Positions 5,936 to 31,239 of a DNA stretch of 64,000 nucleotides are shown here, one piece after another. The notes under the pieces are model-generated. The model had not been told where the DNA came from. It searched no databases and saw only the letters and a program-made list of their open reading frames with translations. The first letter of the stretch is position 1; each line of letters starts with the position of its first letter. Where the stretch lies: assembly GCA_026391315.1 (NCBI GenBank), contig JAPLDT010000101.1:1-64000 (forward strand), read 5' to 3'. Source of the stretch: Bacteroidia bacterium. GTDB lineage: Bacteria > Bacteroidota > Bacteroidia > Bacteroidales > Prolixibacteraceae. The position numbers and the translations under genes were made by a program.

Positions 5936-7126
5936 ATGCATCAGATCAAATTGGCCGATAACATCTATTTTCTGGGCTTCAATGATCGTCGAACCGCCCT
6001 TTTCGAGAATATCTGGCCCATCCCCGACGGAATCTCTTACAATTCCTATTTAATTGTTGATGAAAAGGTTGCTTTGGTCGATACCATGGAGCGCCAGTAC
6101 ATCGAAGATTACATGGCCAGAATAGAAGGTATTATAGGGTCGAGACAGATCGATTACCTGATAATCAATCACATGGAGCCGGACCATTCGGGATCGATGA
6201 AGGCCATCGCCGCCAGATACCCAAATATCACGTTAGTTGGAAACAAAAAGACCTTTGGCATCGCCGAAAACCTAGGTTTCAATCTGGATAAAATGTTGGA
6301 GGTTCACGATAATTCGATTCTGGATCTGGGGAAAGTAAAACTGCAGTTTCAAACCATCCCGATGGTGCACTGGCCCGAGACCATGATCACCTACGATGAA
6401 ACGCACAAAATTCTCTTTTCAGGCGATGCTTTTGGAAGTTATGGTACCTTGGATGGCGGTGTGTTTGATGATGAACTCAATCTCGATTTTTATGAGGTGG
6501 ATGTGATGCGCTATTTTACCAACATCGTTGGAAAATATTGTCCGCATACTCAGCGTGCCATTAAAAAACTGGCGCCACTCGATATAAAAATGATTGCGGC
6601 AACCCACGGTCCGATCTGGCGTACCAATCTGGAGTGGGTGCTGAGCCGCTACAACCGCTGGAGCTCATACGAAAAGGAGCAGGGATGCATCATCGTCTAC
6701 GGCTCCATGTACGGAAATACACAGAACATGGCTGAGGTCATTGCCCGTCAGTTGAGCGAAAGAGGGATTAAAAACATCCGGGTTTACGACTCTTCCAAGA
6801 CACATCCTTCCTACATCATCAACGATATTTTCCGGTACAAAGGGTTGATCATCGGCAGCTGCGCTTACAACAATGCCCTTTTCCCCAACGTAGAGACGCT
6901 CCTTTCCACCATCGAACACATGGCCATCAAAAACAACTATTTTGCCATTTTTGGCAACTTCCTTTGGAATGGTGGTGGTGTCAGTAACCTGAAAAGATTT
7001 GCCGAGCACATGAACTGGGAGACCATTTACGAACCGGTTGAAGAGAAGGGGGCCCTGAAGCAGGAGAAGTTTCAGCTGTGTGTCGAACTGGCGAATACCA
7101 TGGCGGACAAGCTGCTGATGATGTAG
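5936..7126 (+). CDS. Flavodiiron protein (oxygen/NO reductase, FprA/ROO type)
   Basis: A 396-aa class A flavodiiron protein that reduces O2 to water and/or NO to N2O in the cytoplasm of anaerobes, taking electrons from rubredoxin or similar donors. The N-terminal metallo-beta-lactamase-like domain carries the diiron ligands H79-x-E81-x-D83-H84 (NHMEPDHSG), H145 (MVHWPE), D164 (FSGDAFG) and H224 (ATHGPIW). The C-terminal flavodoxin domain starts near residue 251 with the FMN loop VYGSMYGNTQN. All ligands are present, so it should be active. There is no fused rubredoxin and no rubredoxin gene next to it. It stands alone, divergent from mltG. Confidence 0.95.
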   Translation: MHQIKLADNIYFLGFNDRRTALFENIWPIPDGISYNSYLIVDEKVALVDTMERQYIEDYMARIEGIIGSRQIDYLIINHMEPDHSGSMKAIAARYPNITLVGNKKTFGIAENLGFNLDKMLEVHDNSILDLGKVKLQFQTIPMVHWPETMITYDETHKILFSGDAFGSYGTLDGGVFDDELNLDFYEVDVMRYFTNIVGKYCPHTQRAIKKLAPLDIKMIAATHGPIWRTNLEWVLSRYNRWSSYEKEQGCIIVYGSMYGNTQNMAEVIARQLSERGIKNIRVYDSSKTHPSYIINDIFRYKGLIIGSCAYNNALFPNVETLLSTIEHMAIKNNYFAIFGNFLWNGGGVSNLKRFAEHMNWETIYEPVEEKGALKQEKFQLCVELANTMADKLLMM

Positions 7127-7236
7127 AAAAAAAATATTACACAGAGAATAATTTAGCTTTATCCTGAATTCGATGTGTATATAATTTTTTGGCAACTGCT
7201 TAAATTTTAGAGAAATACACAGAGTTCACGGAGCAT

Positions 7237-7256
7237 AAAAATCGCAAGCGATTTTT
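7237..7256. terminator. Hairpin AAAAATCGC-AA-GCGATTTTT
   Basis: A perfect 9-bp stem with a 2-nt loop, A-rich on one side and T-rich on the other, lies about 110 bp after the flavodiiron stop, so it can terminate transcription. It sits between copies of a short CACAGAG/CTCTGTGTAA repeat (7139, 7218, 7257, 7344) also seen near 5822-5845. Confidence 0.5.
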
Positions 7257-7353
7257 CCTCTGTGTAACTCCTCTTTCCTCAATTCAATTTACTAATTGCT
7301 GGCATGATCATTTCCGATGAATTTTCGATTGATAAGACAATTCCTCTGTGTAA

Positions 7354-7361
7354 TATTTTTG
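7354..7361 (+). promoter_or_regulatory. Putative -7 box TATTTTTG before the phosphoesterase gene
   Basis: Matches TAnnTTTG only 10 nt before the ATG at 7372, implying a very short leader if it is used. It overlaps a CTCTGTGTAA repeat. Confidence 0.35.
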
Positions 7362-7371
7362 TGGCTAAAAT

Positions 7372-7902
7372 ATGAAACGAATCGCTCTTCTGTCGGATAC
7401 GCATAGTCACCTGGATGATCAAATGATCCGATTGCTGGGGGAGTGCGATGAAATTTGGCATGCGGGGGATATCGGCAGTAGCTCGGTAACAGACCGGCTG
7501 ATGCAGATCAAACCGCTGAAAGCCGTCTGCGGCAACATCGATGGGGCAGATTTAAGGATGCAGTTTCCCTCGCTATTGCGTTTTCATTGCGAAGGGTTGG
7601 ATGTAATGATCACTCATATCGGAGGTTATCCAGGTCATTACGAAAGGAATCTGCTTCCGATTTTCAAAAATAATCCGCCCAAACTTTTTATAGCCGGCCA
7701 CTCCCATATCCTGAAGGTGATCTTTGACCCGAAATTTCAACTGCTTTTCATCAATCCCGGGGCGGCAGGACAGCAAGGATTTCACATTGTGAGAACCATG
7801 GTGCGTTTTACCATTGACGGGGATCAAATCAGAGATATGGAAGTGGTAGAGTTCGGAAAGCGGGGAACTTTACAATTTGAAACTGGCAGCACACCAGTTT
7901 GA
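7372..7902 (+). CDS. YfcE/MJ0936-family metallophosphoesterase
   Basis: A 176-aa calcineurin-like phosphoesterase. The metal-binding motifs appear in the family order: LSDTHSH (residues 7-13), HAGDIG (31-36), GNID (around 54-57), THIGG (around 83) and GHSHI (around 109). The size and motif spacing match the single-domain YfcE/MJ0936 family, which hydrolyses phosphodiesters in vitro and whose physiological substrate is generally unknown. No signal peptide is seen, so it is cytoplasmic. Its last 33 nt overlap the 3' end of the convergent prmA gene, so their transcripts are complementary there. Confidence 0.9.
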   Translation: MKRIALLSDTHSHLDDQMIRLLGECDEIWHAGDIGSSSVTDRLMQIKPLKAVCGNIDGADLRMQFPSLLRFHCEGLDVMITHIGGYPGHYERNLLPIFKNNPPKLFIAGHSHILKVIFDPKFQLLFINPGAAGQQGFHIVRTMVRFTIDGDQIRDMEVVEFGKRGTLQFETGSTPV

Positions 7903-26771: not shown

Positions 26772-26803
26772 AATTCAGAAAATGCTATGTCAGAACTTAG
26801 AGA

Positions 26804-26981
26804 CTGTTTAAAATTTATTTTTTTTGCCCGTAGGGCATTAATATCAATAGAAAAGAACAACGAAGAAATCTATTGTCCGTTAGGACATTAACAGATAAAG
26901 GATTAATTCCCTACGGGAAATATGGTTTAATGATGTGCCCTTTCTATTGACATTTATCTCCTACGGAGAAAATTTAAACAG
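26804..26981. mobile_element. MITE-like element, copy 1
   Basis: About 178 bp bounded by terminal inverted repeats: CTGTTTAAAATTT at the left and the complement of CTGTTTAAATTTT at the right. Inside are several short hairpins (GCCCGTAGGGC, CCCTACGGG, CTCCTACGGAG). There is no reading frame of its own. The ends are identical to those of copy 2 at 36595-36786. Its right end overlaps the stop region of the HMA-like reading frame at 26961, so the last seven or so codons there are element-derived. Confidence 0.75.
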
Positions 26982-27764
26982 CCTCTTAAACTTATTGGCA
27001 ATTTTGCCAACCTCTCCACCTTCATAATTGATAGTTAGCGTATCATTTTTCATGTTTTTCAGGATGGAGGTACTGTTTGTTAGGGAGTCAATAAAAATAA
27101 TATTGAAAAATACCCTTGAGGCACTATCCATGGTAGAGTGAAATCCTACAATACCATTGTTGTTGGAGAGATGGCTCACAAAATAGGGCAATGCCTCAAT
27201 ATCGTACTGTTTAGGTTCAATCTGAATCTTCAGTGTATCAAGCATCGTTTCGCGGTAGCTTTTCTTCCAGTTGAAGGTTCTCTGGTAAGGTTCAAACATT
27301 TTGTTTTTGTATTCCGTCAACCTGATGGTTTGGAACAGTGGTGTGCCAACCAACTTAAATGAAAGATCGAAATGAGTTGAAAGCTCCTTTGTGTTGATTT
27401 TCAGTATTTTGGTTTCAATCATCTCTTTCAGTCCAGATGCATTCAGATTTGAATTGTATGGCAAAAATAACCTGATTGTTACCGGACAACTGAAAACGCT
27501 TTCGAGTCCGAGGGCGTCCGACTTTTCTTTAAGCAGTAGGGAAAGATGCGAGAAGTCATTGGGATCAAAGAAGTTATCAAGCTGGCAGGTGACCATTTTT
27601 ATATTTAGGATGGAATCGGGAAGTTCACGAACGACTGCCTTCTGCGGTGTAAATATCTCCGCCTGAATTTTTTGGTCCGTTAAAATAGTCGGATCATACA
27701 ATACTTTGACCTTGTGGGTGGTGACATAGGTAGCAACACCCAGCACTCCTTTGACCTCTTTCAT
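26961..27764 (-). CDS. HMA-like C-terminal part of a frameshifted polyferredoxin gene
   Basis: The 267-aa frame has no clear start of its own: upstream of its first ATG (27764) the same frame stays open and encodes a heavy-metal-associated-like strand-helix (GLTEIKCFGSSTAFANKM), which continues into GVLGVATYVTTHKVKVLYDP. This is the beta-alpha-beta-beta pattern of an HMA domain in which the usual CxxC is CxxS. That frame reaches back to a stop beside a run of five A's inside the upstream ferredoxin gene. Removing one A would fuse the two into a protein of about 610 aa. The remaining 200 residues are unassigned. The extreme C-terminus (FKRLFKFSP) comes from the end of a repeat element. Confidence 0.6.
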   Translation of the reverse strand: MKEVKGVLGVATYVTTHKVKVLYDPTILTDQKIQAEIFTPQKAVVRELPDSILNIKMVTCQLDNFFDPNDFSHLSLLLKEKSDALGLESVFSCPVTIRLFLPYNSNLNASGLKEMIETKILKINTKELSTHFDLSFKLVGTPLFQTIRLTEYKNKMFEPYQRTFNWKKSYRETMLDTLKIQIEPKQYDIEALPYFVSHLSNNNGIVGFHSTMDSASRVFFNIIFIDSLTNSTSILKNMKNDTLTINYEGGEVGKIANKFKRLFKFSP

Positions 27765-28800
27765 TTTGTTGGCGAAGGCAGTGGAACTGCCAAAGCATTT
27801 GATTTCGGTGAGCCCTGATTGGGTGAAAACCGCTGCTTTTTACGATGGTGGCAATAACCGGCAACCATTTCAATCCGCTTCGCCTGTTTATTTGCAGGGT
27901 GTCTTTTTCGGGACAAACTTCGAGACATTCGCCGCACAAGTTGCAATCCACATCAGTAACCACCTTCATTCTGGCTACATCAATGACCTGTGGGCATTTG
28001 CGGCTGCATAGCTGACAGTTTGTGCAGGATGATTCGTTGCGGGTAATTTTGGCAACCGGAAAGAAATTCAGTTTTCCGCCGAAGATTTCCAGCAGATATC
28101 CTCCGATTGCTATGACAGCCAAAGGCCAGACGTATGAAAACTGTGTTCCAGTGAGGCGAATAAGTGCATAGAGCAGAACGACAGCGGCAAAGAACCAGGT
28201 AAATTTGAGGATGTTTGAGATGGCGCCGAGCGGACAAATATACTTGCACCAGAAAAGTCTGAAGATGATGGATCCTATCACCACCAGGGAGATAGAAATC
28301 AATGCGAAGTACCAGACAACATCCAAACTGAAGCCTGATGCCACGGCATAATAGGGATCAAATTTTTTGCAAAAAAGCTCGTTACTATCAAGGGTGTAAT
28401 AGAAGGTAACAAATAGGAGGATGTATTTTAAGGAGCGTAAAAGTAGATCCGCTGATCTGGAAATTTTAATGCTGACTTTGAATTTATCCCCAAGATTTCC
28501 AAGCCATTCACTGATTGTCCCAATTGGACAAATGAAGGCACAAAAGAGTTTGCTAAAAAGGATAATTCCAATAATGAGCATGATGCCCATGGCAATTTGC
28601 GCGGTGGTCATGGTACAGGCCAGCGAATTGTTCAGGAAGTAACTGCTTAACGCCTGAACTCCGCCGAAAGGACAATAGGCTTCAAAATCCGGGACATAAT
28701 CCTTCTGCAGGAAGGCCCTGGCTCCAAGAAATAGTAAAAACGAAATGACAATCCACTGAAGGATGAATCGGGGAAGGTTTCTTTTTTGGTTAAATCTCAT
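27694..28800 (-). CDS. Membrane polyferredoxin (NapH/CcoG-like), frame altered at its 3' end
   Basis: The first 320 or so residues are a multi-pass membrane iron-sulfur protein: hydrophobic helices near residues 13-27, 67-85, 122-140, 157-180 and 205-235, two CxxxCP motifs (FCAFICPIG and WCKYICPLG), and two ferredoxin-type 4Fe-4S clusters (CTNCQLCSRKCP and CNLCGECLEVCP). NapH/CcoG/NosR-type proteins pass electrons across the membrane or assist metalloenzyme maturation. After IVKSSGF the sequence becomes Cys/His/Gln-rich and non-protein-like, while the adjacent frame encodes an HMA-like domain, so a +1 frameshift at the five-base homopolymer 27837-27841 is likely. It may be a sequencing error, a real lesion, or recoding. 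Confidence 0.8.
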   Translation of the reverse strand: MRFNQKRNLPRFILQWIVISFLLFLGARAFLQKDYVPDFEAYCPFGGVQALSSYFLNNSLACTMTTAQIAMGIMLIIGIILFSKLFCAFICPIGTISEWLGNLGDKFKVSIKISRSADLLLRSLKYILLFVTFYYTLDSNELFCKKFDPYYAVASGFSLDVVWYFALISISLVVIGSIIFRLFWCKYICPLGAISNILKFTWFFAAVVLLYALIRLTGTQFSYVWPLAVIAIGGYLLEIFGGKLNFFPVAKITRNESSCTNCQLCSRKCPQVIDVARMKVVTDVDCNLCGECLEVCPEKDTLQINRRSGLKWLPVIATIVKSSGFHPIRAHRNQMLWQFHCLRQQNERGQRSAGCCYLCHHPQGQSIV

Positions 28801-28831
28801 GTTAATTGGTTGGTCGTTTGGTTACATGTAA

Positions 28832-28937
28832 TAAGCAACATCCTTTGTGCATCCTTTGTGTTTTCCTTAGGGACCTTTGTGGTGAAATATTGACTTTTAA
28901 CCACAAAGGGCGCAAAGGTTTGCACAAAGGACACAAA
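28832..28937. repeat. CACAAAG-type inverted repeat
   Basis: The left arm (CCTTTGTGTTTTCCTTAGGG, then ACCTTTGTGGT) and right arm (ACCACAAAGGGCGCAAAGG, then GCACAAAGGACAC) form a long imperfect hairpin in the gap between pssA and the ferredoxin gene. Confidence 0.75.
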
Positions 28938-28966
28938 AATGAAGTATGGTTGTGCGAATAATTTCG

Positions 28967-29704
28967 CTATTTTTTTGTCAATTCACTGATTACAGAGATT
29001 CCAATAAACAGCAGAACTATCGTGGAAATACCGTAAAGTTGCAGGGTGGCAATCAATAATACCGAACAAATCATAAAGATGTACTGGATCCGGTTGTTCT
29101 TCCAGCTAAGATTTTTGAATTTTAGCGAGAACATAGGAATCTCGGCTATCAGCAAAAAAGAGAAGAGGAAAGTAATGAAGAGTAGTACCGGAGTTGAAAG
29201 TAAAAGCTGATCAATGCCCGGAATAGTTCCATGCTCCTGAATCAATGCCAGCGAGGAGATAAACAGTGCATTTGCAGGGGTTGGCAGACCGATGAAAGAG
29301 CTGGTCTGGCGCGCATCGACATTGAATTTTGCCAGCCGCAAAGCGGAGAAAATAGGAATCAGAAATGCAGCACCAAGGATCAATGTTTCGGTAAGGGTTG
29401 GATTTGATTGAAGATCGGGCAGGACGTTTTCTTTGAACAGACTTGTTTCAAGTAGTTTAAACATGATTAAACCGGGTGCCAGTCCGAAGGAGATCATATC
29501 TGCCAGCGAATCCAACTCTTTTCCTAACGGTGAATAGGCCTTTAACAGCCGGGCTGTCATGCCATCCAGGAAATCAAAGATGGCAGCTAGAAGAATCAAA
29601 ATTACTGCTGTTGTCAGCGCCCCCTTTAAAATAAAAACTACTGCAATGCTACCGCAAAGGACATTGAGCGAAGTTAAGAAATTGGGAATATGCTTTTTGA
29701 TCAT
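28967..29704 (-). CDS. pssA: CDP-diacylglycerol-serine O-phosphatidyltransferase PssA
   Basis: Makes phosphatidylserine from CDP-diacylglycerol and serine at the membrane. The 245-aa protein has about seven hydrophobic helices and the CDP-alcohol phosphotransferase signature with its aspartates (FDFLDGMTARLLKAYSPLGK, then ELDSLADMISFGLAPG). The start at 29704 (MIKKHIPNFLTSLNVLCGS) fits the family; the frame is open 44 codons further up but that part overlaps psd and is not family-like. It follows psd by 10 nt, so the product and substrate enzymes are cotranscribed. Confidence 0.94.
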   Translation of the reverse strand: MIKKHIPNFLTSLNVLCGSIAVVFILKGALTTAVILILLAAIFDFLDGMTARLLKAYSPLGKELDSLADMISFGLAPGLIMFKLLETSLFKENVLPDLQSNPTLTETLILGAAFLIPIFSALRLAKFNVDARQTSSFIGLPTPANALFISSLALIQEHGTIPGIDQLLLSTPVLLFITFLFSFLLIAEIPMFSLKFKNLSWKNNRIQYIFMICSVLLIATLQLYGISTIVLLFIGISVISELTKK

Positions 29705-29714
29705 AAGACCGGAG

Positions 29715-30365
29715 TTATAATTCAGCGAGTATCGTTTGACTGCCGGTAACCTCCTGACAGAGTTCAACATTGACTTTGGTTCCGACAGGCAGGTAAATAT
29801 CGACGCGGGATCCAAAACGGATAAATCCCAGCTCATCCTGCTGTGCTACCTTTTTTCCTACCGTGGAGTAAGATATAATACGTTTGGCAACCGCACCGGC
29901 AATCTGTCTCACCAGAACTTCGGTTCCATCTGCCATGCGAATCACGGTAGTGGCCCTTTCGTTCAGGGTTGAAGATTTGGGCAAATAGGCTGCCATAAAA
30001 TGGCCGCTATGGTGTTTGAAATAGGTGACCTCTCCTGGAACCGGATTCCAGTTGATGTGTACATTGTTTACTGACATAAAGACAGAAATCTGCAATCTTC
30101 TATCTTTAAAATATTCATTTTCAGTGGTCTCTTCGATTGCGACAATGTTGCCATCAGCCGGAGAGAGTACTGATTTGGGTGCAGGGGTAATAATTCTGTG
30201 GGGATAACGAAAAAAACGGACAGTTAATACCAGAAAGGGCAAGGTTGCCAAAATCATGAACACCCGAAATACCGTTTCTCCCGTCAGGCCTACCAGGTAA
30301 TTGACTGCCAGCCAAATTAATATCGAAATCAAAACTATTTTATATCCCTCTTTGTGTAATCTCAT
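29715..30365 (-). CDS. psd: Phosphatidylserine decarboxylase proenzyme (short archaeal-type PSD)
   Basis: Decarboxylates phosphatidylserine to phosphatidylethanolamine. The 216-aa length and N-terminal membrane segments (about residues 8-24 and 28-46) match the short Psd class. Conserved segments are SVNNVHINWNPVPGEV (catalytic histidine region), HHSGHFMAAYLPKSS and the self-cleavage site FGS near the C-terminus (RFGSRVDIYLP), where the pyruvoyl group forms on serine. The start at 30365 (MRLHKEGYK) was chosen; a longer frame would run into cdsA. It lies between cdsA and pssA, so the full PE pathway is encoded together. Confidence 0.94.
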   Translation of the reverse strand: MRLHKEGYKIVLISILIWLAVNYLVGLTGETVFRVFMILATLPFLVLTVRFFRYPHRIITPAPKSVLSPADGNIVAIEETTENEYFKDRRLQISVFMSVNNVHINWNPVPGEVTYFKHHSGHFMAAYLPKSSTLNERATTVIRMADGTEVLVRQIAGAVAKRIISYSTVGKKVAQQDELGFIRFGSRVDIYLPVGTKVNVELCQEVTGSQTILAEL

Positions 30366-30417
30366 TCCTTTTTCGTTAAGTAGGGCAAAAATAGTGATTT
30401 TTTCTTGAATATTGTCT

Positions 30418-31239
30418 TTATCCGAAGTAGTGGATGAGCAGGTAGACGAATGGAGAGGCGAAAAGGATGCTGTCGAACCGGTCAAGCAAACCTCCATGAC
30501 CGGGTAGAAATTTACCGGAATCTTTGAGCCCAATATTGCGTTTGATCATCGATTCGACCAGGTCGCCGATCGTACCCGAGATGGTAACAATCGTAGCAAT
30601 CAGTAGCATAAATCCTGTCTCAAACCTTGGGAATAGCCGTTGCAAGGCAACGGCCAAAAGCAGGGCAAGAAACCAGCCACCAAAAAAACCTTCCCAGCTC
30701 TTTTTGGGCGATATTCTTTCCAAAAGACGGTGTTTACCCAATGTTACCCCGAACAGGTAAGCCCCGGAATCAAATGCCCAAATCAATATAAAAAGAGATA
30801 TCAGGAGCGTTGGTTCGTAATTGTTATCAGCCGGAAATGTTGGGAAGACGAAATAGTTAAAGAGCGAGAACGGGTAAATGATGTAAAGAATCCCGAAAAG
30901 AGTGACGGCAATGTTTTCAAGTGCATTTTTCTTTGCACGGAAAAGTTCATAGGCAGGAATGACAAATAGAATTGCCAGATTAAATCCGAAAAGATTCACG
31001 GAGACTATCCCTTTTGTATAGAGGAAGGTGAGGAGGAAAATCAAGGCTCCCATGGTAATTCCCATGACTTTCTGTGGTGAAATACCTGCGGATTTTGAAA
31101 GCTGGTAAAACTCTTTGAGGATAAATATGGAGAAAAGTCCAAACAGGAGGGCAAAACTCCAGGGGCCAAACCAGATGGCTCCCATTAGCACGACTGCAAA
31201 GAGCAGTCCGGAGATGCTCCTCTTGTAAAATTCTTTCAA
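30418..31239 (-). CDS. cdsA: Phosphatidate cytidylyltransferase CdsA
   Basis: Forms CDP-diacylglycerol from phosphatidic acid and CTP, the branch point of phospholipid synthesis. The 273-aa polytopic protein carries the CDS signature near the C-terminus (SMIKRNIGLKDSGKFLPGHG, then GLLDRFDS) and KKSWEGFFGG before it. The start appears to be a TTG at 31239: the family N-terminus (KEFYKRSISGLLFAVVL) begins there, and it overlaps the DUF2007 stop codon (ATTTGA), implying translational coupling. The next ATG would delete the first membrane helix. Confidence 0.94.
   Translation of the reverse strand: MKEFYKRSISGLLFAVVLMGAIWFGPWSFALLFGLFSIFILKEFYQLSKSAGISPQKVMGITMGALIFLLTFLYTKGIVSVNLFGFNLAILFVIPAYELFRAKKNALENIAVTLFGILYIIYPFSLFNYFVFPTFPADNNYEPTLLISLFILIWAFDSGAYLFGVTLGKHRLLERISPKKSWEGFFGGWFLALLLAVALQRLFPRFETGFMLLIATIVTISGTIGDLVESMIKRNIGLKDSGKFLPGHGGLLDRFDSILFASPFVYLLIHYFG

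Follow-up and report, generated by a model that had tools for sequence, protein, structure and literature searches.

An 83-nt deletion and a MITE-like repeat in a probable pseudogene of a Bacteroidales membrane 4Fe-4S/HMA-like protein

Reading frames and neighbours at the locus

The window is a stretch of 64,000 nucleotides (positions 1 to 64,000 of contig JAPLDT010000101.1, assembly GCA_026391315.1) from a Bacteroidia bacterium of the Prolixibacteraceae. ORF reading of its minus strand gave a membrane 4Fe-4S frame open over 368 codons (28800-27694) and, one base over, an HMA-like frame that is open from before the junction and stops at 26961. The two frames meet at AAAAA (27841-27837), as the original prediction had described, and the frame break at this position is real. 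Skipping one A at the junction yields an open frame of 612 codons, in agreement with the predicted joined protein of about 610 aa, and adding two A's yields one of 613. The features of the locus are collected in Table 1.

Table 1. Features of the broken gene, its surroundings and its intact paralog
Feature	Position	Strand	Description
MITE-like repeat, 186 bp	26800..26985		inverted ends GAGRCTGTTTAAA, TAA on both sides
3′ part of broken gene, other frame	26986..27840	-	HMA-like domain with CxxS, then two further ferredoxin-fold domains
Out-of-frame tail of 368-aa ORF	27694..27836	-	about 48 unrelated residues after broken helix
Deletion junction	27841..27842	-	ATCGT/AAAAAGCAG; frame shift here; 83 nt absent relative to all four congeneric copies
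5′ part of broken gene	27842..28800	-	NapH-like membrane region, CPFGG and CxxxCP motifs, two 4Fe-4S ferredoxin motifs
Upstream neighbours	28967..31239	-	CDP-alcohol phosphatidyltransferase (pssA-like), psd, cdsA-like; synteny
Operon-like group with intact paralog (G000:C110)	L143:6062-18634		ECF sigma factor, small proteins, TonB receptor, DUF4876, DUF6850, ABC ATPase, DUF4857

The window copy lies between pssA and a SusC/SusD pair. In three congeners (G003, G006 and G001) the pssA-like and psd genes likewise stand before the gene, each matching in a single frame. Every neighbour compared (asparagine synthase-like, SusC/SusD-like, pssA-like, psd, FtsH-like and others) aligns to a congeneric gene without a change of frame. 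This speaks against poor base calling, and general low sequence quality was rejected on this ground. The interval between pssA and the broken gene contains a repeat-like stretch at 28820-28960 (CTTTGTGC..., CACAAAGG...).

A deletion at the junction of the two frames

The two pieces are colinear with one 634-aa ortholog, matching its residues 1-320 with 78% identity and its residues 349-633 with 62% identity (E=0), and a split of one protein is therefore favoured over chance. The 5′ part, the counterpart of residues 1-320 of the congeneric copies L007/L030, stops inside the last transmembrane helix; for the out-of-frame tail that follows, no homology was found in the alignments made. The intact congeneric ortholog of 634 aa (L007/L030) was matched end to end, in one frame, by 76 of the 96 fetched loci, a number that includes some loci fetched twice. 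The others were the window itself, copies truncated at contig ends, copies that were diverged or matched only in part (mostly with long open frames) and one interrupted copy. Searches also found homologs with both parts in one frame in relatives and in named genomes.

The idea that the two halves are one protein was thus borne out by a single-frame 4Fe-4S membrane protein with HMA-like domains in relatives, and the uninterrupted homologs of about 600 aa that it called for exist. Neither of the outcomes named as contradicting a fusion, separate proteins with the same breakpoint or a lack of joined homologs, was encountered. None of the 84 homolog rows aligned is broken at the junction site of the window. 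A second interrupted homolog, G043:C37 (L017/L021), is broken after the first HMA-like domain, independently of the lesion in the window.

The split had been put down to a single base in the homopolymer. DNA alignment with the four congeneric copies showed instead a gap of 83 nt in the window exactly at the junction. Residues 321-348 of L030 (28 residues) have no counterpart in the window, and the 83 nt amount to 28 codons, which leaves the frame shifted by one base. The absent segment comprises the second half of the transmembrane helix at 308-331 and the ELPTIDxxWG linker; it is kept in 84 of 84 other homolog rows, and the linker tryptophan W341 is invariant in 44 aligned family members. In an AlphaFold2 model (mean pLDDT 86.9), the ortholog has the helix 308-331 and then three ferredoxin-fold-like units, assigned by following the succession of strands and helices. 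Hydropathy scanning detected this helix in the ortholog but not in the joined window frame.

Correcting one base leaves half of the helix and the linker absent, and a one-base sequencing error in the homopolymer was rejected because it leaves 83 missing bases unexplained. Judged from the alignments, the frame break is best attributed to the 83-nt deletion, not to a one-base slip. As residues 321-348, including half of the last helix, are deleted, the product of the joined 612-codon frame would lack 28 conserved residues, among them the membrane crossing that leads to the metal domains. The sequence ATCG is present at both edges of the deletion in congener L007. A short repeat may have been used in the deletion, which is a suggestion only.

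A programmed frameshift or transcriptional slippage at the A5 run could, by skipping one base at the junction, read the open 612-codon frame and yield the joined protein. However, this product would be without the conserved helix half and linker, a run of five A's is shorter than those known to slip efficiently, and the frame is unbroken at this site in every aligned homolog. This last observation led us to reject programmed recoding, and we regard the whole explanation as extremely improbable. It is also conceivable, but unlikely, that most of the population is intact and that the contig represents a misassembly or a rare deletion variant. The genome is a draft of 111 contigs, and neither half shows further decay, as would fit such an artefact; against it, assembler or base-calling errors do not typically leave an 83-nt gap with edges that have, in relatives, no more than a few bases in common, and the junction lies well within a 117-kb contig in which the compared neighbouring genes are intact.

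Domain content, the 3′ end and decay of the window copy

The first piece gave Pfam ferredoxin matches to Fer4_5 (E=5e-13) and Fer4_10. Its score against the NapH/MauN family (TIGR02163) was 54.7 bits, far below the curated cut-off of 213, and the match of the window copy to the HMA domain (PF00403) was likewise weak, 12.9 bits against a gathering cut-off of 24.8. Of the 44 family members, 16 gave an HMA match at E≤0.01; a profile of the family hit ferredoxin chains as well as the HMA domains of ATP7B and CopA. Foldseek returned no PDB match at E≤0.001, and a literature search for a polyferredoxin with a heavy metal-associated domain in Bacteroidetes found nothing.

The replacement of the metal-site CxxC by CxxS, which had been noticed in the window copy, is present and proved to be a feature of the whole family, with C363 invariant and S366 at least 90% conserved; CxxS was accordingly rejected as a sign of decay. 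All the family-invariant cysteine motifs (CPFGG, CxxxCP and two 4Fe-4S motifs) are present. The HMA-like domain and the two further domains are also there, but out of frame with the membrane part. Because the last transmembrane helix and the ELPTIDxxWG linker are missing, both of which occur in 84 of 84 rows, the window copy appears to be a broken, not a working, member of this Bacteroidales 4Fe-4S/HMA-like family.

The MITE-like repeat supplies both the terminal residues of the gene, RLFKFSP, and the stop that it now has. Several near-identical copies of the 186-bp repeat occur elsewhere in the genome, the longest of them 94-96% identical, and there are many shorter, more diverged pieces besides. 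Removing the repeat and joining its flanks gives GGEVGKIANKFKF followed by a stop, that is, the NKFKF ending of orthologs. From this comparison the repeat seems to be a second lesion, at the last codons of the gene. As a separate observation, the intact gene in L058 and L103 is directly followed, at about 7040-7700, by a second copy that resembles the C-terminal domains.

Decay of the window copy is not advanced, since both halves are otherwise stop-free and the cluster-binding cysteine motifs are kept. Its divergence is only mildly raised in comparison with its nearest ortholog. When changes at codon positions 1+2 were compared with those at position 3, the window copy differed from L007 (p=0.01 for the N part, p=0.08 for the C part) and not from the intact copy L008; overall, codon-position and branch-length comparisons gave no clear relaxation. 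The tree rows labelled L042_G003par, which represent a different gene, were left out of account.

The 368-aa product, in which the membrane part and the ferredoxin part are both preserved, could still be functional. NapH-like proteins have no HMA domains, and with every cluster-binding cysteine motif intact the shortened product might have been retained as one of them. Yet about 48 unrelated residues follow the broken helix at the end of the frame, no homolog examined ends at the break point of the window, and the C part shows no disproportionate divergence relative to the N part, unlike what would be expected of an old truncation. A functional truncation is therefore improbable, more so than an assembly artefact.

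In our view the window gene is most likely a pseudogene, an orphan copy, recently inactivated, of a Bacteroidales protein that is about 635-660 aa long. Compared with intact orthologs it carries a disabling lesion, from which we infer loss of function, and the inactivation looks recent because there are no other stops. When intact, this protein combines a NapH-like membrane part with two 4Fe-4S ferredoxin motifs, and its final transmembrane helix leads to three HMA-like ferredoxin-fold domains, presumably periplasmic. The 83-bp deletion took out the linker together with half of the helix before it and shifted the frame, and the MITE-like element inserted at the 3′ end. Of the three options first offered, recent inactivation is upheld by the deletion and the 3′ repeat; sequencing error falls with the 83 missing nucleotides, and programmed recoding with the absence of a break in homologs. 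An apparent one-base split resolves into an ordinary larger deletion and a mobile-element insertion, and the case shows how fusing two frames by removal of a single base can lead astray.

Intact relatives, iron-uptake-type genes and known systems

The same genome encodes an intact paralog of 637 aa, whose neighbours are given in Table 1. Among about 80 homologous loci, the gene is adjoined by a TonB receptor cluster in 31, a DUF4876-like lipoprotein in 33 and a DUF6850-like protein in 36, the DUF names of these clusters resting on likeness to the paralog's neighbours. The paralog's operon resembles two loci induced by iron limitation: Bacteroides thetaiotaomicron BT3625-3633 (DUF4857/ABC/PepSY/DUF4876/TonB), which iron depletion induces 37- to 128-fold, and the DUF4876/TonB locus PG1019-1022 of Porphyromonas gingivalis, with 21- to 215-fold induction (PMC10434189). 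The window copy stands outside any operon of the TonB/DUF4876/ABC/DUF4857 type.

By analogy with these induced loci, and because of the paralog's neighbours, a metal-reductase or electron-supply role of intact family members is plausible; they may act as an inner-membrane electron conduit or a metal reductase or handler for TonB-dependent uptake of a metal, probably iron. More tentatively, and with somewhat less than even confidence, intact members could be inner-membrane metal reductases or handlers that replace PepSY-type membrane proteins in the iron-limitation-induced TonB/DUF4876/DUF6850/ABC/DUF4857 operon, the window gene being a decaying orphan copy outside it. A by-product of the analysis is a lead to a widespread Bacteroidales membrane 4Fe-4S/HMA-like protein beside genes of iron-uptake type.

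Single-ORF relatives in Bacteroidales (L030 in CAIRSO010000848.1; L047, Butyricimonas synergistica; L065, Alistipes sp. dk3624) have the same domain order as the window copy. In these relatives the frame is continuous and both the last helix and the linker are retained, whereas the window copy is short of the 83 nt and frame-shifted. It is 67% identical to L030 over the matched parts, and within the genus the genomic neighbours are the same. The membrane part of the NapH/MauN family is related, and there too CxxxCP motifs precede 4Fe-4S motifs; the present family differs from it in an extra helix and the HMA-like domains. CcoG, a cupric reductase of the FixG/RdxA type, is likewise a 4Fe-4S protein of the membrane and is reported to reduce a metal ion. 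Reduction of Cu(II) as by CcoG is for the present family an analogy only, HMA-like domains being found here instead of the FixG C-terminal domain.
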